Shown here in pieces: positions 1 through 63,379 of a stretch of 64,000 nt of DNA. The notes under the pieces were generated by a model. That model was given only the letters and a program-made list of their open reading frames with translations, searched no databases and was not told the origin of the DNA. Origin of the DNA: a virus. The position numbers and the translations under genes are program-made. How positions within the stretch are numbered: position 1 is the first letter of the stretch; the number at the start of each line of letters is the position of its first letter. The DNA is taken from IMG/VR virus record IMGVR_UViG_3300045972_000146, positions 29,864-93,863 of that record; one strand, written 5' to 3'.

Positions 1-2022
1 AATGAGAAATCTTTCTGATTTTTCCATAAGTGAGGAAGTTGCAGTCGGGGATACAGCAACTGAAAGCAAACGATAGTATCCAAAACCATTTCAGAGTTTA
101 TCAACATGTAAAACAATTAACGTCTAAGTTAGGACCTATTAATATGCACACACAGGCAGTGTGGTGTTAGGGATAAACTTGCCTATTAGACAATAGTATG
201 CGCTATTAAAAAAGCAAGTCCCATGTGATGGAATTTAAAGTCACTACAAAAAAGAGTGCGGGGTTGAACTCCTAGCAACAGCCTATGCATTGTAGGAGGG
301 TCTTTAACTGCGTTTGTAACGTACATAGTTAGAGTAGGTATAACGGCGACCAAACAAGACACGTTATTAAAAATGGTACAGCTTTGGAACTGTATCGACT
401 GTTGAACAAGGGTAACTGCACGAACAAAACCACTTACAGGTAACTCTGTATAATAGTACTGCGTAGGTTATCGATCAATTAATTATTAATAATATAAACC
501 GGCTAGAAATGCGCGGGGTGGAAATCCAATAATTAATTCAAGCTATAGATTACACTTTGAGGGTTAAAGACCCTATGGCCCATGGACCAGTGAAATAGCG
601 ACCTGTCAAGTTATTAAGTTTGAGACAGATAAAAAATACACAAACTAGCCTTACTAATTCACTGGCTACAATAAAGTGGAGAATTAGCCCTAGTATGCTT
701 TCAAGGTTAATCGAAAGTGGGAGGTGCATGTGCTGGTACGCATGACAAGAGCTTCAAGGCGAAAGCCGAAAACCGGGCACGCACGGTATAATGCAAACCG
801 AAACCTAATTTACGCTGTTTCATAATTTTCAGCCGTATTGAAAAAGATTAATCCCCTGGGGTAGGGGCGAAGTTTATCCTGCCAGACAAAAAGAACGCCA
901 CGTCTTTAGTCAAATTTCACGAACGTATGGGAAAGCCGTTCACCCAAATTGCATATTAGTAGGCTCTTCCCTGTCTCGGAAATAGCCGAAGGAAGTCGAA
1001 GACTATTCAATCCGTGCGACAGAAGCTCCTGTATACAACTAGTGGAAGGGTCAAACACTTAAAAACCATATTTAAGGTGGTCGAAAGCTATCACATTTCT
1101 AAGCGACTAAAAAGCATAGAAAGATCGATAATTAGTACACTCCCTATCTGAAGTCTAGAACCCTGGGAGCATTCTACCCAGATAAAGGTCAAAAGCAAGC
1201 CGGGAACTTCATGCTGTAACAGGACGGAGCCACCGTCAGATGTAGCGGAGACGGTACATTCTTGCCTGGACGATAGACGTAGTCACTAGATAGGATAAAA
1301 TGCGTTATTTTTCTCAGACAATTTCAAGACTGCGCGGACTTCAAGGGCCGCTACAATATAGATCTTCAGAACACCGTTTATAAACCGTTGGCCTCATTTG
1401 CCAATATGAATCGACAAGGAATTGATACAAGGGTCGCAGCAAAACAACCATAGTTCTTTATTGCTTTCTTCAACAAGTAAAGTATGCCTTAAATACATTG
1501 ATATTATTATATAATTATCTATCGCGTGTCAATACGTAGATAAACCTTTCAAGCCTAGCACTTGGGGATGGAGTATGAGCCTAATTAATATAATGTAATT
1601 GTTCGAGAGACCGAAAATTGCTACAAATATCATAATTTATAAAACCCATTTTAAGCCGTTCTAAGGCATTATAAGTCAGCGTTGATACGAAAGTACTATT
1701 GTGAAAAGATAGTGGCATAGCGGAGCTGTAAATGCGTATAAAGGGCACAATTCCTAACTAATAGTTGCAGTGGGCGCAAAACCCATAGGTTAATCGTAAA
1801 TTAGCTACTTTCAAACCACAATCCCAACCCCTCTTCTAGTACCTAGCGGAAAAAAGAGCAGCGAGTGCGATCGCGGGATTATTTTCAAATTTTATCCGAA
1901 GAATTCTCATAAATGTTAAATTGGACAGTTAAACGGGCTACGGCAGAACATTCCAATCAAGTAGGAACTTTCAGTGATTATCAAAAACAACATTATTTAT
2001 CAAAAATAGGAGGAAACAAACA
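1..2022 (+). ncRNA. 2-kb ORF-less region; candidate giant structured RNA or leader
   Basis: No open reading frame of useful length exists on either strand, which is striking in a phage otherwise packed with genes. Sampled lines are about 40-47% G+C, above the roughly one-third G+C of most neighbouring genes. Short hairpins are visible: 377-381/390-394, 435-439/446-450, CTAATTC/GAATTAG (654-660/681-687), GGC-GAAA-GCC (758-767), the two-tier 966-970/991-995 with 976-979/986-989, 1163-1167/1177-1181, 1223-1227/1233-1237 and 1240-1244/1255-1259. GNRA-type loops recur. Many 5-bp hairpins are expected by chance in 2 kb, so these alone do not prove a fold. It is not a tRNA, rRNA, tmRNA or RNase P RNA that I recognise. 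Large ornate phage RNAs (GOLLD, ROOL) are the closest known concept, but I cannot match either. The strand is assumed from the downstream genes, and the 5' end may lie outside the window. Confidence 0.4.
2008..2013 (+). promoter_or_regulatory. Strong Shine-Dalgarno (AGGAGG) before a GTG start
   Basis: A perfect AGGAGG sits 9 nt upstream of the GTG at 2023 and decides that start. The replication genes I checked and the capsid gene have A/T-rich leaders with no SD. Bacteroidota ribosomes normally make little use of SD pairing, so this is an outlier. Confidence 0.75.
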
Positions 2023-2505
2023 GTGAAAAATTCAAAAGAAGAAGCCCTACGGCTTTTCGGAGCGACCCTAGGAGGTCATATCCACTCAATCAAAGTTATA
2101 CCAATGGATAAAGACGCAAAATCGAAAGATGATGCATTCCAGGTAAAAGTACCATTCCAATCATACGTAGTTGATCACGTAAAAGTGAACACAGTAGCAC
2201 ACAAACAGGTGTCAGGTGGTATCGATATCGTCCTTATCAACGGTGGCGAAAAAGAAATTAAAATCGGTTTAAACGAGCCATTGATTAACAATGCTTCGGA
2301 AATCGTTAACGGGTCCGACGTTATTGAAAAACGGACATTTTTTGGTGACGCAACAACACCGGCCGAAATCGTAAAAGCAATGAATTTATCAGAAGTGGCA
2401 CGCATTGATACGATTATGGAAGAACTTGCCGCAACACGGGAAGCTCTTATCGGTATCGTTGAAGCAACCGACCGTGCTGCAAAATCTTACGACGGCTTAG
2501 ATTAA
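2023..2505 (+). CDS. Hypothetical protein, SD-led, 160 aa
   Basis: I do not recognise this 160-residue protein. It begins with a short helix, has a beta-rich middle (about residues 20-85, alternating hydrophobics, ending in a GGEKEIKIGL stretch) and ends in a helical segment (about 112-155) that could be a coiled coil. No signal peptide, membrane segment or catalytic motif is visible. The start is GTG, chosen because AGGAGG lies 9 nt upstream. The gene is richer in G+C (about 45% in sampled lines) than most of the left arm, a trait shared here with the capsid gene, so high expression is as good an explanation as recent transfer. It directly follows the 2-kb ORF-less region and is followed 28 nt later by another SD-led gene, so the two probably form one unit. 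Confidence 0.8.
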   Translation: MKNSKEEALRLFGATLGGHIHSIKVIPMDKDAKSKDDAFQVKVPFQSYVVDHVKVNTVAHKQVSGGIDIVLINGGEKEIKIGLNEPLINNASEIVNGSDVIEKRTFFGDATTPAEIVKAMNLSEVARIDTIMEELAATREALIGIVEATDRAAKSYDGLD

Positions 2506-2521
2506 TTCTATGCCCTAGGAA

Positions 2522-2527
2522 AGGAGG
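2522..2527 (+). promoter_or_regulatory. Strong Shine-Dalgarno (AGGAGG) before the ATG at 2534
   Basis: AAGGAGG ends 6 nt before the ATG at 2534, which is optimal SD spacing. It is the second and last strong SD seen in this window, and both belong to the adjacent pair 2023-2505 and 2534-3067. Confidence 0.75.
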
Positions 2528-2533
2528 CGCAAC

Positions 2534-3067
2534 ATGAACGAAGAAGAACTTATTATCGTATTAGACGATTACGACAAAAATCATTTCGCGGAATTAATTG
2601 ATATTTACTTAGAACCTAAAAGTCGCTTTCGCATTAAAAATGATGGAACCGTAATCTTCGAAAAACATGGACCATTCATTGATTGGTTCGTTCGTTCAGA
2701 AAATCAAGTCGATTTCTTAAATTGCTTCCAAGCAATAGTTAAAGTAATGCTCGACGACAAAGTTAAAGGAAGTATACCATACATCCAGTCGCTTTGTGGC
2801 GAAGCTATGGGTGAATTGATGGCTACTAATAATAGAAAACAAGCTGTAACTAGCTTGCTATTAGCTCACCTTAATGACTCGCAACCGAATTTCAACCCAG
2901 GACGATCTCGTAACAGAGAACTAATGGATGACATTCAAATTGTCGAACAAAGCAGACGGCGCAAAGGACCAGTTAAAGTGTATTTTGGAGGCGGTGGAGA
3001 CATGGCCAACTTAGCAGACTTTATTAATGAACGTAAAGCTTTGGTTATCTTCGGAAACGGAGAATAA
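2534..3067 (+). CDS. Hypothetical protein, SD-led, 177 aa
   Basis: Unrecognised 177-residue protein. The N-terminal half is acidic and mixed alpha/beta (residues 1-70, with a GPFIDWFVR segment near 45-53). The middle is helical (about 70-115). The C-terminal third is basic (NPGRSRNREL, then QSRRRKGPVK near 139-148) and ends in a glycine-rich stretch (FGGGGD) and a hydrophobic strand. The basic patch could contact nucleic acid, but that is inference only. The start is fixed by a strong SD 6 nt upstream. It lies 28 nt after the previous SD-led gene, and a strong hairpin (3197-3229) lies about 130 nt downstream, so the pair may be one transcription unit. Confidence 0.8.
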   Translation: MNEEELIIVLDDYDKNHFAELIDIYLEPKSRFRIKNDGTVIFEKHGPFIDWFVRSENQVDFLNCFQAIVKVMLDDKVKGSIPYIQSLCGEAMGELMATNNRKQAVTSLLLAHLNDSQPNFNPGRSRNRELMDDIQIVEQSRRRKGPVKVYFGGGGDMANLADFINERKALVIFGNGE

Positions 3068-3095
3068 CAAAACAAAATTTAAAAAGATATAAGTT

Positions 3096-3141
3096 GGGTA
3101 ACTCCGTAATACAAATATCTGCATATGTAGGGTAACTCCGT
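3096..3141 (+). repeat. Direct repeat GGGTAACTCCGT x2
   Basis: The 12-mer GGGTAACTCCGT occurs at 3096-3107 and again at 3130-3141, a period of 34 nt, in the gene-free stretch after 3067. The core GGGTAACT also occurs at 410-417 and, as AGGTAACT, at 438-445 inside the 2-kb ORF-less region. The function is unknown. A protein- or RNA-binding module would fit. Confidence 0.6.
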
Positions 3142-3196
3142 TATTGCATAAGTAGTGCTGATTTGTGACTTAAATTAATTTATATAACCCCATACT

Positions 3197-3229
3197 AGAA
3201 AGCCTCTGTATTTACTATAGAGGCTTTCT
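3197..3229 (+). terminator. Probable terminator after the SD-led gene pair
   Basis: A perfect 11-bp inverted repeat, AGAAAGCCTCT (3197-3207) and AGAGGCTTTCT (3219-3229), has an 11-nt loop. The downstream U-run is short (CTT then mixed sequence), so intrinsic termination is likely but not certain. It separates the SD-led genes from the replication arm. Confidence 0.6.
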
Positions 3230-3251
3230 TAGAGGGATTATAATGCATAAA

Positions 3252-3308
3252 GAGAGGAATCTCAATATGATACGACGGGGAAAAGTATCAGGCTGAATAG
3301 TTATCATA
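3252..3308 (+). promoter_or_regulatory. Structured leader upstream of the 142-aa gene
   Basis: GAGA-GGAA-TCTC (3252-3263) is a small hairpin with a GNRA loop. TGATAC (3268-3273) pairs with GTATCA (3285-3290). The overlapping TATGATA (3266-3272) can instead pair with TATCATA (3302-3308), so the two helices are mutually exclusive. The next gene starts at 3341. Whether it works as a switch, an attenuator or a small RNA is unknown. Confidence 0.35.
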
Positions 3309-3340
3309 AAGTCAAACCATTAAAAATCAATTTTATATAT

Positions 3341-3769
3341 ATGAAAACAGCAAAAGAACTTATCCAAACCCGCGAATCTCTGATCAACAATATTAAAAAG
3401 AATTGGGATCGTATTCGCATTGAAAATGTGGTAGAAGCCGGACAAACACGTAATTATAATGTACAGGCTTTGTACAAATCAATTATTAATGACTCATTGG
3501 CTCTTGTCGAAGCAAAGTTAGATATTCAATTAGTGAATATTGGATTTAAAAAACGAGAAGAAATGCCAGCAAGTTGCATTTATCCGCAAATCTACTCATT
3601 ACAACAATTAAAAGAACAGAAAACGAAACTTAATCTTATTCCAACAAAAGGAGCAGCGGTTCTAACAGCCTCATTTGTAGAAGAAGAAACTAAGGTTCTG
3701 GATTCACAGATTCTTGCACTTGAAAGCCACCTTGAAAACCACAATAATTCGTGGGAAATCGCGGCATAA
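3341..3769 (+). CDS. Hypothetical helical protein, 142 aa
   Basis: Unrecognised 142-residue protein, predominantly alpha-helical by eye. A charged amphipathic helix covers residues 1-30. Further helices lie near 42-70 and 85-97, with a C-terminal helix near 112-135. No membrane segment, zinc cluster or catalytic motif is seen. The ATG is preceded by an A/T-only stretch without an SD, the usual Bacteroidota style and opposite to the two genes before it. It is the first gene after the probable terminator and structured leader, so it may head a new transcription unit. The start of the sequence is loosely reminiscent of the DIP1984-like helical family, but the similarity is too weak to name it. 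Confidence 0.7.
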   Translation: MKTAKELIQTRESLINNIKKNWDRIRIENVVEAGQTRNYNVQALYKSIINDSLALVEAKLDIQLVNIGFKKREEMPASCIYPQIYSLQQLKEQKTKLNLIPTKGAAVLTASFVEEETKVLDSQILALESHLENHNNSWEIAA

Positions 3770-3976
3770 AAACAAAACAGAAGTAACGGTGATATGTTAA
3801 TCAGTGACAGAAATGATTAATAATTGGGTTCAATCCCCATACTTTAACAAATGGCAATAGCGTACCAGTTAACTAAGTACGTTTTGCAAAACAGCAGAAT
3901 AAAGTTTTTTGTCGGGTTTTTAAACTGCTACCATGTACATGGTCTAAAACCCTATCATTATTTTAAAACAATTCAA
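3770..3976 (+). promoter_or_regulatory. Structured intergenic RNA region
   Basis: This stretch holds several inverted repeats: a GGGTTCAATCCC hairpin resembling a tRNA T-arm (about 3825-3837), CGTAC/GTACG (3861-3865/3877-3881), GTTTTGCAAAAC (3881-3892), and GGGTTTT/AAAACCC (3914-3920/3946-3952) enclosing the perfect palindrome ACCATGTACATGGT (3930-3943). It can be read in frame with the next gene from an ATG at 3851. The density of structure and the poor protein character of those 42 codons favour a non-coding leader. Confidence 0.4.
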
Positions 3977-4462
3977 ATGAGACCAATCGAAAGAATTGAC
4001 AATTTCTTGAAATTAGTAGATTGGAATTGGCTTCTATATGAAAAATGGAAAATAGATAAGGAAGACTTAGTAGCAAAGAAAATTTGCTATATGACAAATC
4101 CTACTCTACCTGAAGTTTGGAAACAAAACCCAGACCAGCGAATAGGACAGTTGCTTATTAATTTAGGTTTAATTGACGATTCATTGGAAAGATGGGTGAT
4201 AGAAGACTCAACAATTTTAATTGACCAAGGAATAGAACCAGAAGAAGTATTATATTGGACGTCTATGTATAATGAAAACTCAGAAATATTAGAAACGCCG
4301 ATTACACGAAAAGTAAGTACTTTAACTGAAGAGCATATTATTAGAATACTGGCCTTTATGGTCGAACATGGTGGCAGAATATCGCCAGATATGCAAAAAG
4401 CATTCGATAATATGTTATTAAAATACAAAGATGTGCCAGAGGAATTGCCAATGGCTGCATAA
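3977..4462 (+). CDS. Hypothetical protein, 161 aa (203 aa if the upstream ATG is used)
   Basis: Unrecognised protein. The reading frame is open from an ATG at 3851, but I prefer the ATG at 3977 (residue 43 of the long form). It follows a typical A/T-rich start context (AAAACAATTCAA), the sequence from it on looks like a soluble helical protein, and the upstream part is dense in inverted repeats. The 161-residue form is tryptophan-rich near its start (DWNWLLYEKW) and acidic in its middle (about residues 70-105). It ends in a helical stretch (about 108-155). No catalytic motif, zinc site or membrane segment is visible. It lies between an unknown gene and the replication block, 54 nt upstream of the loader-like gene. 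Confidence 0.55.
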   Translation: MRPIERIDNFLKLVDWNWLLYEKWKIDKEDLVAKKICYMTNPTLPEVWKQNPDQRIGQLLINLGLIDDSLERWVIEDSTILIDQGIEPEEVLYWTSMYNENSEILETPITRKVSTLTEEHIIRILAFMVEHGGRISPDMQKAFDNMLLKYKDVPEELPMAA

Positions 4463-9209: not shown

Positions 9210-10433
9210 ATGATTATCAAATCAGATAACAAAAATACGTATTTAATTACCCCAGAAGAAACAAAACAATTCTTAGGAATTAATACAAATAAGACAATTC
9301 TTATTGACAAACAAAGTTTAGAATTTATTATCGAAGAAGCGGGACCCGGCATTTTGGCAACAAAATGGGTTGATGAAGAAATCGATGGACGTAAATTCCG
9401 AAAGGTCAAAAAAGAAATTGTATCAACGTTTGGAGACCTACTCCTTGAAGAGTATAAATCAACAAGCAAAATTTACGAAACTTTGAGTAAAAAATTCATT
9501 AATACCTCCGGTGTTTCTGATGTATTCAAAAACGCATTGGCCAACGACATGAATCTTGTGTTATTTGGTAAAGGCGGATTTGGTAAATCTGAAATGTGCG
9601 GTGAATTATTCGGATGTTCAGAATTGAAAGATCGTGTTTTTATTAAATCACTATCAGAAGCTACAACGGAAGAGGACCTGTTCGGAGGTATAAATGTTAA
9701 AAAGATGACAGATACTGGAGTAATCGAGTATAACTGCGAGAATTCCTTTGCAAATAAGGAAATTGTCATTTTTGAAGAAATTTTTGATGCTAATCCCCGT
9801 GTATTAGCTGCACTCAAAGATACTTTGACCTCGAAAGAGATACGAAACGGAAACCAACGATTCCCAATCAAAACCAAAATTATTATTGGTCTAACTAATA
9901 AGACTTATGATGAGGTTATTGAAGACGATTCGACAGAAGCGTTAACACAACGTTTCCCTGTTTCATACAAATTGCAATACGATATGACCAAGCTGGATAC
10001 AGCAGGGTTGATATTAAACCGTTATCCAGATTTCGATGGACGCAAGTTAGCCTCTATCCTTGATACTCTCAAGGAAATGTCAGACCTAACTCCGCGTAAA
10101 GTCCTTGAAATGTCTAAATACATTAAGGATCTGGAAATCATTAAAACAAAGAACTATTCTGAAAAGATTACCAATAATATGATGACTCCGGTTATCAATT
10201 ATTTGAAAAACAAATCAGTAATTGACTTTAATAAAATTCTATTTGATTCGATTGTGAATGCAGGCTCAGCAATTAAGGCGGAAGACGTAAGAGATTACGA
10301 CTCGTTTGTTGATACTAATCGCTGTCTTGAGATCATTAAGAATTCTAAAGTTGGCGGACTTGGCGTTTCAAATAACGTAAAAATGGAAATCGAGGAATTC
10401 TTCGGAGTTTTGAACAAAAAACTTGCTGCATAA
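9210..10433 (+). CDS. MoxR-type AAA+ ATPase
   Basis: A 407-residue AAA+ protein. Walker A is GKGGFGKSE (120-128, K126) and Walker B is IVIFEE (185-190, E189/E190). A downstream SKEIRNG segment and the arginine region (TQRFPVSYKL) fit sensor and arginine-finger positions. Such ATPases (MoxR, RavA, CobS) are partners of VWA proteins and act as remodelling chaperones or metal-insertion motors. The next gene encodes a VWA protein and overlaps this stop in a TAATG arrangement, so the two are translationally coupled and very probably form a complex. The N-terminal 100 residues are a separate unassigned domain. The start follows an A/T-rich stretch without an SD. The cellular target is unknown. Confidence 0.85.
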   Translation: MIIKSDNKNTYLITPEETKQFLGINTNKTILIDKQSLEFIIEEAGPGILATKWVDEEIDGRKFRKVKKEIVSTFGDLLLEEYKSTSKIYETLSKKFINTSGVSDVFKNALANDMNLVLFGKGGFGKSEMCGELFGCSELKDRVFIKSLSEATTEEDLFGGINVKKMTDTGVIEYNCENSFANKEIVIFEEIFDANPRVLAALKDTLTSKEIRNGNQRFPIKTKIIIGLTNKTYDEVIEDDSTEALTQRFPVSYKLQYDMTKLDTAGLILNRYPDFDGRKLASILDTLKEMSDLTPRKVLEMSKYIKDLEIIKTKNYSEKITNNMMTPVINYLKNKSVIDFNKILFDSIVNAGSAIKAEDVRDYDSFVDTNRCLEIIKNSKVGGLGVSNNVKMEIEEFFGVLNKKLAA

Positions 10434-11629
10434 TGATAGCTGGTAATAATGCATACAAATGCTTTACGGACATTAAGTATAACCTTAGTGATGAGGCGAT
10501 TAACAAAATTATTAAAACAAAAAAAGCACTGAAATCGGAAATAACAAAGGTGGAAAAGGAATTCAATCCATTTTCTGGAAAGCCGATGACGGAAGCAATG
10601 ATGCAAGAGAAGGCCTCTCTTGATTTTATGTATAAGAATTTTGAAAGTCAAATTATCCCAAGTATATATAACAGTGTTGACGGTTATGATACGCAAACTT
10701 CTTTCTATCAACAAAATGATGGAACGCCAATCGAGACTCTAAAAGGAGTGTCTCGCACCTTAGATACAATATCAAGAGGAGCGAAATATGAAAATGGAAC
10801 TACGCTCGAAAAATCAATCAATGCCTTGTACGATCAGTATAAACACATTGCGGTTAGCGAACCAACTGAAAAAGAAATTGAACAGGAAGGAAAGGCGATA
10901 TCTAAAAATACCAAAAGCATAGAGAATGAGGATGCCGACCCTAGTGGTAACGACAACCCCATGAAAAATATGGCTGGTTATAAGCAACTCGAAGAGTGGC
11001 TAAAGAAAATGAAAGGAGATGATAGTAAAAAGAAGAGATTCATGCAAATGCAAAAAATGTCTGATTTACAAAAAGTTTCTGTAGTTGAATTTGTGAAACC
11101 AAAAGCGTTGTTAATGAAAAAAATTGTTAACAAAGAATTGTACTGTAAACAAACCTCACCAAGTGAGCGTTTCATGCATATTATGACCGACCTTTCTGGA
11201 AGTATGGGTGATTATCATACGTGGAGAAATCTACTATTGACGAGAACATATGAAGAATGTGTAAGCATAGGTATAAATGTTGCGACTGAGTTTTGGCATA
11301 CAAGTTTGTACACTTCGGGCAAAAATAGTCCACAAAAGATACGATCAAAAATGGATTTGGAAAATAAAGCATTAAGTATACGTCCTGGCGGAAGCGACAG
11401 AATGGGTTACTGTGCATTGCAAAAACTACAATCCCTTCAAAGAAAGAATGCAAAGCAATACATTTTATGTATATCTGACGGAACTGGATCTATCGATGAT
11501 CGAGAACAGGCAGAAGAAATAGAACGTATGGCAATTGAAAAAAACATTGAGATAAAGTTTGCTTTGTTCTCAAAAAATAACGACATGAATGGAACAAAAA
11601 AAGAAAATATATTCTACATTTATGACTAA
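10433..11629 (+). CDS. VWA-domain protein (CobT/ViaA-like partner of the AAA+ ATPase)
   Basis: This 398-residue protein has a C-terminal von Willebrand A domain (about 245-398). The MIDAS motif is DLSGSMGD (D253, S255, S257), and a later GSDRMGY stretch and YILCISDGTG (about 342-351) provide further metal-site residues. The N-terminal 240 residues are helical and charged, with an acidic linker (about 160-180), as in CobT/ViaA-type partners of MoxR ATPases. Its ATG overlaps the stop of the ATPase gene by 1 nt. The pair probably works as a remodelling machine on a phage or host complex, with the target unknown. An 18-codon acidic reading frame overlaps its stop (11622-11678). Confidence 0.82.
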   Translation: MIAGNNAYKCFTDIKYNLSDEAINKIIKTKKALKSEITKVEKEFNPFSGKPMTEAMMQEKASLDFMYKNFESQIIPSIYNSVDGYDTQTSFYQQNDGTPIETLKGVSRTLDTISRGAKYENGTTLEKSINALYDQYKHIAVSEPTEKEIEQEGKAISKNTKSIENEDADPSGNDNPMKNMAGYKQLEEWLKKMKGDDSKKKRFMQMQKMSDLQKVSVVEFVKPKALLMKKIVNKELYCKQTSPSERFMHIMTDLSGSMGDYHTWRNLLLTRTYEECVSIGINVATEFWHTSLYTSGKNSPQKIRSKMDLENKALSIRPGGSDRMGYCALQKLQSLQRKNAKQYILCISDGTGSIDDREQAEEIERMAIEKNIEIKFALFSKNNDMNGTKKENIFYIYD

Positions 11630-58588: not shown

Positions 58589-59224
58589 CTATTCTTTTAA
58601 TTTCCAGATGAATTTAATATTAGCAGTCGATCTATTTGATCCATCTAATTTTGATTCGCCCTTTAATTGTCTTTGTATCGTTCTTCTGTCTGCTCCAGTG
58701 CTTCTAGACGCCTCTATTATACTGGGAAACTCATTTAGTAGTTCTCCATTTATAGAATATTGCAATATAGATCTAGACTGTCTTAAACCATTGCTTCTAG
58801 CTATTTCGGCATGAGATTCTGATAATTTTCTTCCTATTTGCTTTAGCCTTATTATTTCTCTAGCCTCTGCGGTAAATCCCTTATTTAGTATCCTTAACTT
58901 TTCTCTAGTCTCTTTAGATACTTCTAATCCTGGGTTTCCTCTTCCGCCTTTTGCAACATTATAACCCTTATCATGATTCGTTGTGTCATAAAAAGATACC
59001 CAATACTGCTCTCTTTGATTTTCAAGTCCATCTTCACATGTCTCCAATACTCTTATTGAAAATTGATTTATACCAAATTCGAATATTGCTGCATGTACTT
59101 TAGACTGTTGTCTTTTATTCGCAGAAAATTTATGTTCTGCCATTCTGGAATTTATATTCCTCTTTGTTTGTCCAATGTAAGATTTTCCATCTAATTCATT
59201 GGTTAATTTATATATATTATACAT
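58589..59224 (-). CDS. GIY-YIG homing endonuclease with NUMOD-type DNA-binding repeats
   Basis: A 211-residue free-standing homing endonuclease. The catalytic GIY-YIG domain is visible: NIYKLT (3-8, the GIY strand), KSYIGQTKRNINSRMAEH (14-31, with YIG and the catalytic Arg27). The C-terminal half has NUMOD3-like (NPGLEVSKETREKLRILNKG) and NUMOD1/HTH-like (SIIEASRSTGADRRTIQRQL) repeats for target binding. It sits between the major capsid gene and the next structural gene, with 82 nt and 95 nt of non-coding DNA on either side, so it looks inserted. Such elements spread by cutting the same site in related phages. Confidence 0.85.
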   Translation of the reverse strand: MYNIYKLTNELDGKSYIGQTKRNINSRMAEHKFSANKRQQSKVHAAIFEFGINQFSIRVLETCEDGLENQREQYWVSFYDTTNHDKGYNVAKGGRGNPGLEVSKETREKLRILNKGFTAEAREIIRLKQIGRKLSESHAEIARSNGLRQSRSILQYSINGELLNEFPSIIEASRSTGADRRTIQRQLKGESKLDGSNRSTANIKFIWKLKE

Positions 59225-59306: not shown

Positions 59307-60785
59307 TTAATCAATCACGTCCATGATCAATTCCCCACACGCTCTTGGGTCACGCACCATGATACCGACTTCACCTAAGAAGTGTACTGAGTAACCATCC
59401 TTTGCATTTGAACGCAAAGTATTGATAGATTTACCATATCCAGCTCCAGGGGTTACAGAACCACCAGTATGCCACATAACCATTTCTCTATCTTTTCTAG
59501 CTACCTTAACGATATTAGCTTCACCATCTCTTGTACCGAAGTCTAAGAAAGTAAATCTGTAAGATTCAACTGGCTTACCAGTGATTGGATGTAATTTACG
59601 GTTATGAACGATATCATCGTACATAGGTAAATGTTTAACAGTTAATTCAATACCGTTAGTCATCTTGTAAGTCGTGAACTGACCACCTAAGGTTAATTCT
59701 TGACCATTACCAGTGATAAATTTAGTATCAATTAAGTTAAAGGCTCCCATTTTTTCTTTCAATACACGGTCAAATTCACGCATACCCATCTCGCCAGTAA
59801 AGGCTACGAATTTACGTTCGTTAGTTCCCAACATATTGTAAGACATATCAAATAAGAAGTCTTCCATTAAATCAGCATTCAATTCAGTATAATATCTACG
59901 GTTAGAAGGAGCAATCTGTTGTAACAGACCAGCACCGATATAAACCGGACGACCATTAGTACCCATCAAATCAGTAGTTCCATCAGGATTAGCATTGTAT
60001 TTAGAATAAACTAATTGTCTTTCTAAACGTTTGTTCCATTCACGAGCAGCTTTCCATTCCTGGAAGTCAGACCATAGATAAGAAGTTTTGCCAGTCTTAG
60101 GGTCTTTAAGTGCGATTGCTAATACAGTACTATAAGCGGTACCAGTAATATCATAAGACAAACGAACTGTAGTCAAATGATTATGCAATTTGATATGAGT
60201 ATTGTAGTTGATGATATCTGCTTCTTCAGAATATTCTTCGTAGGCAGAACCTAAACGAGATACTTGACATCCAGCAACTAAATATTTACCAGGTACGTAA
60301 GAGGTAGCTTGACTATCAGCGATGAAACAAGTATAAACCCATTCGTTACCATCTTGGTAAGGTGCACCAGATACACGTAATTGATATTCTTTATCATCTA
60401 ATTCAATGATAGCACCAGGTCCAAACCATTTGTCTTCTAAAGACAACATGATAGGAGTGTTTCCTAATCCAGCTTGAGTGGTTGGGCCTGTTACAACACT
60501 ACCATTCCATTTTGCAGAACGAATAGTAACTGCACGATCTGAATCAATCATTACTGACCATCTAAATTCGCGTTGATCGATTACCATAGTTTTTCCAAGA
60601 CCACCTGTTAAGAAGTCAAGAGCAGAACTATAGCCATCATCTTTAGTACCGAACACGTAAGAAATTACGCTAGATACTTCATGAGGTTTAACCAACAATG
60701 CGTTTGAAAGCATGTTTTCGTCTACTAGATCTGAAAACCATTTTCCACGGTATAGTTGTAGGTTATTTAAAATTCCATTATCCAT
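59307..60785 (-). CDS. Major capsid protein (HK97-fold, crAss-like)
   Basis: A 492-residue major capsid protein. Diagnostic patterns by eye are the N-terminal LQLYRGKWFSDLV, the FVAFTGEMGMREFDRVLKEK stretch (about 326-345) and LTLGGQFTTYKMTNGIELTV (about 362-381) followed by LPMYDDIVHNRKLHPITGKP and SYRFTFLDFG. These are close to the order in crAss-like capsid proteins. The size fits, the scaffold gene is immediately upstream, and G+C and codon use are higher than in most neighbours, as expected for the most abundant product. The start lies in an A/T-rich leader without an SD. A small hairpin (CCCA/TGGG) follows the stop. It assembles into the icosahedral head. Confidence 0.85.
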   Translation of the reverse strand: MDNGILNNLQLYRGKWFSDLVDENMLSNALLVKPHEVSSVISYVFGTKDDGYSSALDFLTGGLGKTMVIDQREFRWSVMIDSDRAVTIRSAKWNGSVVTGPTTQAGLGNTPIMLSLEDKWFGPGAIIELDDKEYQLRVSGAPYQDGNEWVYTCFIADSQATSYVPGKYLVAGCQVSRLGSAYEEYSEEADIINYNTHIKLHNHLTTVRLSYDITGTAYSTVLAIALKDPKTGKTSYLWSDFQEWKAAREWNKRLERQLVYSKYNANPDGTTDLMGTNGRPVYIGAGLLQQIAPSNRRYYTELNADLMEDFLFDMSYNMLGTNERKFVAFTGEMGMREFDRVLKEKMGAFNLIDTKFITGNGQELTLGGQFTTYKMTNGIELTVKHLPMYDDIVHNRKLHPITGKPVESYRFTFLDFGTRDGEANIVKVARKDREMVMWHTGGSVTPGAGYGKSINTLRSNAKDGYSVHFLGEVGIMVRDPRACGELIMDVID

Positions 60786-62710: not shown

Positions 62711-63379
62711 TTATTTCTGTCCTACTACTTTATGATATTCTTCTTTACTTATAATAAATATAGTTGCATTGTATTTTTCAAGTCTACCCTGTTTGTTATT
62801 TATAACGTATCCAGTAGTACTATGCCCTATATTTAGAGATCTTTCTAAATCCTTATATCCATAATAATGAAATACGTCTCCATTATCAAAAACTATTTTT
62901 AGAAATTTATTTCCTTTTTTATTATTAAAATCAGAATATCTTTTTATTGTTTTTTCTTTTATTTTATTTATAGACGACTCTTTCATATCATCAGACCAAT
63001 CTGACCATATCCTATATTTTATATCGCCATCTTTATATTTTTTCTTTAAAGTATCTGATTGAGACTTTCTGAACGCTCCAGGAATATATCCGTTTGCGGT
63101 TCTTCTACATAAATTATAACCCACATTGCCAAATGGTTTGAAATAATCTAAATAATATTGTTCAAATTCAATACACTCTAATGGACTACATTCCTCTAAT
63201 ATTGAAAAGTTAAAATAATTTCTATTCTTATTCCACGCGCATTGAAGATGTTTGTTATAATGAGATCCTTTGTTTAATAGAAATTTATGGACATAAAATC
63301 TTTTTTCTATATTTATAGAACTCCCAATATATATTTTCCCATTAAACTTATTTTCTATTTTGTATACTCCTGAAATCAT
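62711..63379 (-). CDS. GIY-YIG homing endonuclease, 222 aa
   Basis: A 222-residue GIY-YIG endonuclease: GVYKIENKFNGKIYIGSSIN (4-23, GVY and YIG), IEKRFYVHK with catalytic Arg27, and a glutamate region EFEQYYLDYF (about 71-80). The C-terminal part (about 95-222) is basic, for target binding, but has no clear NUMOD repeat. It overlaps the end of the portal gene by 4 nt (ATGA) and precedes the lysozyme-like gene by 1 nt, so it is embedded in the head gene cluster. It is A/T-rich compared with the neighbouring capsid genes, a sign of a mobile gene. Confidence 0.82.
   Translation of the reverse strand: MISGVYKIENKFNGKIYIGSSINIEKRFYVHKFLLNKGSHYNKHLQCAWNKNRNYFNFSILEECSPLECIEFEQYYLDYFKPFGNVGYNLCRRTANGYIPGAFRKSQSDTLKKKYKDGDIKYRIWSDWSDDMKESSINKIKEKTIKRYSDFNNKKGNKFLKIVFDNGDVFHYYGYKDLERSLNIGHSTTGYVINNKQGRLEKYNATIFIISKEEYHKVVGQK

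Follow-up and report, generated by a model that had tools for sequence, protein, structure and literature searches.

GOLLD is a large structured RNA of about 0.8 kb. It assembles into an RNA-only multimeric nanocage, ROOL forms an 8-mer nanocage and OLE RNA forms a dimer (PMC12286853). OLE is a bacterial RNA of about 600 nt (PMC12054373), and in phage ICP1 an abundant ORF-less transcript of about 0.8 kb from the gap between gp139 and gp140 has been compared with GOLLD and ROOL (PMC7567579). Here, we describe a locus at the start of the window, that is, the whole stretch of 64,000 nucleotides that was analysed (bases 29,864-93,863 of a linear virus record of 93,863 bases), whose block at 77-2022 (1,946 nt, + strand) very probably encodes a conserved giant structured RNA, as judged by comparison with related phages. 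Such an RNA would join the giant phage RNAs of open function, clearly larger than GOLLD and ROOL, and at 2 kb it exceeds 16S rRNA in size.

An ORF-less block in a crAss-like phage and its relatives

By both its capsid and its replication genes, the source virus is a Suoliviridae-type crAss-like phage: the Crassvirus major capsid protein is encoded at 59307-60785 (PF23898, E 4e-212), which bears out the crAss-like label of the sequence-only reading, and the helicase is 51-61% identical to Suoliviridae helicases. In the human gut, crAss-like phages rank with the most abundant viruses. Two ORFs amid the structural genes (58589-59224 and 62711-63379, minus strand) resemble GIY-YIG endonucleases, one of them directly adjoining the capsid gene, and at 9210-11629 a MoxR-type AAA ATPase (PF20030) and, next after it, a protein bearing a DLSGSM (vWA/MIDAS-like) motif form a phage MoxR-vWA pair.

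The sequence-only reading had placed a gene-free block at 1-2022. Bases 1-76 (+ strand) proved to be the 3' end of a 144-aa ORF that starts before the window (L002:9506-9940; 61% identical to its counterpart in the close relative L003) and lies outside the RNA, so that the ORF-less block is 77-2022, for which the claim held; a profile HMM places the conserved core of this region at 126-2016. The block contains no ORF of at least 60 aa. Its longest stop-to-stop frame has 93 codons compared with a median of 91 in shuffled sequences, no frame exceeds the shuffled length under the standard code, TAG=Q or TGA=W, and a search for a recoded or frameshifted gene under the same three codes found none that spans it. 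The block is also richer in G+C than the remaining window, as had been claimed (39.6% versus 34.7%, a richness matched by only 3.3% of equal-sized stretches elsewhere), and is present once in the genome. A large non-coding region in a packed phage genome, a general mark of giant phage noncoding RNAs, is therefore found here.

A nucleotide search with the block across 50,697 phage records returned no match, and relatives were accordingly reached via the neighbouring proteins. The comparison set consisted of L003, GenBank Suoliviridae genomes and 80 IMG/VR loci, with p-crAssphage (NC_024711) outside it. The homologues that the sequence-only reading proposed to look for were found at the same locus: related crAss-like phages (Suoliviridae and sister lineages) have an ORF-less block of 1.7-2.5 kb at the corresponding place, as do most IMG/VR loci with sufficient upstream DNA. 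In annotated Suoliviridae genomes with a readable locus, the place is taken by an annotation gap of 1.85-2.5 kb, preceded by a sigma factor and two to four small genes and followed by two genes, here called g1 and g2 (about 155-215 aa and 160-200 aa, respectively). Two ORFs of g1 and g2 size lie directly 3' of the block in 35 of 35 loci, not all of which are independent. No 2-kb ORF-less block occurs at the corresponding place in Steigviridae crAss001, and among helicase relatives lacking a detected sigma homologue, none has an RNA recognized by the window-clade or gut-clade profiles.

In the 12 members of the window clade, which are 40-83% identical, variable stretches, which pair, are interspersed with conserved blocks; conservation peaks mid-RNA (1040-1520) rather than beside the Shine-Dalgarno (SD) sequence of g1. 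Profile HMMs of the window-clade and gut-clade RNAs each recover their own members, including, for the window-clade profile, a syntenic member outside its training set (E 3.5e-113), with no convincing cross-detection between the two. Since neither the profiles nor the covariance model R1, described below, matched the gut-clade RNAs to the window-clade RNA, their homology rests on synteny and neighbouring genes. The simplest reading, in view of their orthologous neighbours and matching size and strand, is that both descend from a single ancestral RNA, although it is unproven by sequence.

Several observations on other loci accompany this comparison. A more distant relative (G013) has a 1.77-kb ORF-less block between the sigma factor and the helicase (L120:9495-11259), which matches neither RNA profile and may represent yet another, third type of sequence for this RNA; other large ORF-poor stretches are present in G014 and G017. 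Six hypothetical genes annotated in GenBank within the RNA region, four on the minus strand (L025:5366-5803, L026:5593-6030, L030:3986-4492 and L032:3871-4353) and two on the plus strand (L028:4186-4347 and L022:2838-3023), lie inside the RNA profile match and are probably spurious. The helicase of cr52_1 (L020:12001-12966) is interrupted by an in-frame stop when read with the standard code but is open with TAG=Q, suggesting stop-codon recoding in a Buchavirus.

Covariation, helices and strand of the RNA

The structure is not evident from the window sequence alone, and its support comes only from comparison with relatives. The short hairpins and GNRA loops that had been offered as evidence of structure are at chance level: the block holds a single GNRA hairpin with a stem of at least four pairs (516-527; 1.25 expected by chance), and the single-sequence folding energies of five 300-nt pieces are ordinary (z -1.0 to +1.6).

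The covarying helices that the sequence-only reading had called for emerged from alignments of relatives, both in individual domains and over the whole region. As the null for the whole region, we used alignments evolved on the same tree without a pairing constraint. Against this null, 123 compensatory pairs were counted in eight members of the window clade (42.8 ± 6.7 expected), 86 in four close members (31.8 ± 3.8), 142 in Loutivirinae (52.5 ± 6.3) and 132 in Boorivirinae (57.2 ± 8.1), compared with 29 versus 31.1 ± 3.8 (helicase), 13 versus 6.6 ± 2.5 and 36 versus 26.1 ± 3.7 in the helicase and polymerase coding controls. The Oafivirinae set (143 versus 79) does not discriminate because its coding control was also raised (95 versus 56). 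A strict all-against-all pair test with the tree null, of low power with 12 sequences, gave 965-984 as its top pair (E 0.375), and a tree null for only two sequences gave meaningless values. Folding z-scores from column shuffling were very negative as well, but they were not relied on because a high-identity coding control also reached -11.5.

The individual helices, all on the + strand, are distributed along the length of the RNA. Near the 5' end, GTCTAAGTTAGG (122-133) probably pairs with GCCTATTAGAC (181-191) as a closing helix (122-191), whose arms are invariant in L003 and L051 and for that reason provide no covariation. A domain at 474-533 combines a AAACCGGCTAG motif, a GGGTGGAAATCC hairpin and an outer A+T-rich helix, with 7 of its 15 pairs compensatory in a six-sequence alignment. 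In the hairpin 963-970/978-986 (963-986), seven of eight pairs changed on both sides and 92% of cells are paired (n = 12). A long helix joining 1146-1158 to 1286-1296 (1146-1296) encloses a variable arm; it is 91-97% paired with six covarying pairs, reads GTCTAG/CTAGA in the window and TTTAG/CTAAA in relatives, and its region contains the nearly invariant motif GTAGTCACTA. Further 3', eight of ten pairs covary in the hairpin 1595-1605/1612-1621 (1595-1621), the top helix, which lies above all 20 tree-null alignments.

The best conserved domain (1323-1445) is built from helices 1330-1333/1436-1439, 1334-1338/1347-1351 and 1361-1369/1422-1435, together with a small hairpin at 1388-1392/1400-1404 identified by eye. 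Across nine sequences, 94.7% of cells are paired in this domain, compared with 76.7% after shuffling and at most 41.5% when the partners are slid, and in 13 of the 21 pairs both partners changed without loss of pairing; the covariation score was 0.611 versus 0.252, a value reached by 0 of 500 shuffles. The hairpin at 1334-1351 illustrates this pattern, being GCGG/CCGC in the window, ACAG/CUGU in L003, CAAG/CUUG in L038 and UUAG/CUAA in L040. The covariance model R1, based on this domain, found matches at E<0.001 only at the syntenic place in 1.38 Mb of phage loci, and recovered sequences absent from its training (L054, 1.4e-9; L051, 1.2e-7; L062, 3.5e-4).

The RNA strand is assigned as + because the G-U pairs kept on this strand would be A-C on the other, and the consensus fold of the + strand beats its complement in all five sets, nearly equally in one. 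Covariation-supported helices, a second mark of giant phage noncoding RNAs, are thus present, and the structured-RNA reading is supported by syntenic homologues, covarying helices and the failure to find a recoded gene. At the level of sequence, the comparisons demonstrate a conserved position and gene order, a fold maintained by compensatory changes, the + strand, the absence of a protein and homologous g1 and g2 genes in all clades. An RNA whose shape is retained although its sequence has drifted past recognition must have an important role, and this one takes up about 2% of the genome across a crAss-like phage family.

The neighbouring genes and competing explanations

The gene g1 (2023-2505, + strand, 160 aa) lies directly 3' of the RNA and is preceded by an SD sequence (aggagg at 2010) immediately after the conserved 3' block, confirming for this gene the SD-led start that had been noted behind the block. 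Its product combines a small beta domain with a 47-residue C-terminal helix, according to the predicted fold (pLDDT 86.9), and is homologous to gut-clade g1 (hhalign E 2.1e-19). Among viral models, only proteins of gut Suoliviridae phages match the predicted fold (E<=0.001), and no related solved structures were found. The second gene of the cassette, g2 (2534-3067, + strand, 177 aa), is homologous to gut-clade g2 (hhalign E 3e-7), and its counterpart is in place in the 35 loci. The homology of both genes and the fold matches of g1 indicate an orthologous locus throughout the family. A gene for an ECF/sigma-70-type sigma factor (G000:27031-27585; L002:7032-7586) lies upstream of the RNA.

Between the RNA and g1 there is no terminator-like hairpin; the first one (3195-3232, + strand, -20.7 kcal/mol) follows g2, and at the counterpart position L003 carries a hairpin whose sequence differs. 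The lack of a terminator before g1 and the strong one after g2 make RNA-g1-g2 the likely transcription unit, with this hairpin as its probable end. Two further elements were observed nearby. After g2, GGGTAACTCCG occurs twice at 3096-3140; L003 and L062 likewise have two copies and several others have one, and these copies are probably a second, small structured element ahead of the terminator. A tRNA-like element (3780-3848; ...GGGTTCAATCCCCATACTTT..., T-arm-like), located between g3 and the gene after it, is conserved in L003 and is not called by ARAGORN, and real tRNA genes occur in the corresponding part of the genome in several gut relatives.

The explanation we favour as a whole, and consider probable, is that the block encodes a + strand noncoding RNA of about 1.9 kb that is cotranscribed with g1 and g2 and works in trans as an architectural RNA. 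In Suoliviridae-type phages, the order would be the ECF/sigma-70-type sigma gene, the giant RNA, g1, g2 and the terminator; the RNA would be transcribed together with g1-g2, then be released or retained as a stable molecule, and would act in trans as a particle or scaffold in the manner of GOLLD, ROOL and OLE. In this scheme, g1 and g2 may be dedicated protein partners of the RNA or genes under its control. The trans-acting architectural function itself is slightly better than an even proposition. A more doubtful suggestion is that the RNA, alone or together with the g1 and g2 proteins, builds a large particle or compartment that serves in infection; if true, every Suoliviridae-type phage with the locus would carry a hallmark ribonucleoprotein machine unrelated to GOLLD, ROOL and OLE. 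The fixed link to two small proteins makes the question of function testable.

The main rival, also the alternative named by the sequence-only reading, holds that the 2-kb RNA is a giant cis-acting 5' leader, which folds to control transcription or translation of g1-g2. The constant presence of the same two genes directly downstream, the terminator-free interval before g1 and the position of the g1 SD right behind the conserved 3' block are all consistent with a leader, whereas the peak of conservation in mid-RNA, away from the SD, argues against one. A leader of 2 kb with many domains would also exceed the known cis-regulatory leaders, which to our knowledge are all far smaller, and we regard this explanation as unlikely. 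An element acting at the DNA level, for example an origin of replication or a packaging site with inverted repeats that function in double- or single-stranded DNA, is suggested by the location of the block upstream of the replication module (polymerase, helicase and primase). It is improbable, however, because RNA accounts well for the long-range multi-domain helices, one-strand G-U pairs and conserved unpaired motifs, the + strand gives the better consensus fold, and the GC skew shows no switch at the block. Self-splicing introns and other mobile RNA elements do occur in phages, and a long stretch devoid of ORFs may be a ribozyme, but an insertion of this type is highly improbable here: no intron model matches (cmscan; group-II-D1D4-1), the flanking genes are complete with their own stop (upstream) and start (downstream), and the single-copy element sits at a single, orthologous position in every lineage. 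A protein gene that has decayed or been recoded, despite the apparent TAG recoding in some relatives such as the Buchavirus helicase, can practically be dismissed, as the block has no frame beyond shuffled expectation in any of the three codes, its paired-site covariation is far above the coding controls, and a relic would not persist across the family.

Comparison with known giant RNAs

The Rfam comparison proposed by the sequence-only reading, which had been unable to match GOLLD or ROOL, gave the same outcome: when the entire window was run through cmscan with every Rfam 15 family (GOLLD, ROOL, OLE and introns included), no model matched at its gathering score, seven related loci yielded none except tRNAs, and a search of 1-4000 up to E 5 produced one meaningless match and nothing sensible. 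GOLLD was tested via the full cmscan only. The ROOL model RF03087 (574 positions) matched 0 of 28 phage records, with no control genome positive either, and group-II-D1D4-1 (RF01998) was absent from the 28 phage records and detected in 2 of 14 control genomes. No earlier description of the block RNA was found in the literature searched, a scope that left subscription papers and preprints mostly outside. At L112:43337-45609 of crAss001 (NC_049977), Gp96, which has TROVE and Ro60-like vWA domains (PF05731, E 5.5e-13), lies next to a 0.9-kb ORF-less gap, making it a candidate Ro60 of phage origin accompanied by a noncoding RNA.

The ICP1 gp139-gp140 RNA resembles the block in occupying an ORF-less gap of a lytic phage and in the unknown role of the RNA; ICP1 is an unrelated phage, and expression of its ~0.8-kb RNA has been shown, whereas the block RNA is predicted from sequence. 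OLE, a large structured RNA, works with dedicated proteins, a partnership that g1 and g2 may provide for the block RNA by analogy; unlike the bacterial OLE of about 600 nt, the block RNA is phage-borne and has no Rfam match. ROOL (RF03087) is likewise large and structured and occurs in phages and bacteria, but the block RNA is about three times longer and does not match its model. GOLLD, also found in phages and bacteria, shares with the block RNA the nature of a large phage-encoded structured noncoding RNA, differing in its size of ~0.8 kb from an RNA of ~1.9 kb that is tied to two protein genes and matches no Rfam family. By these comparisons of sequence and predicted structure, the block RNA is a new family, separate from and larger than GOLLD and ROOL and of the same general kind.
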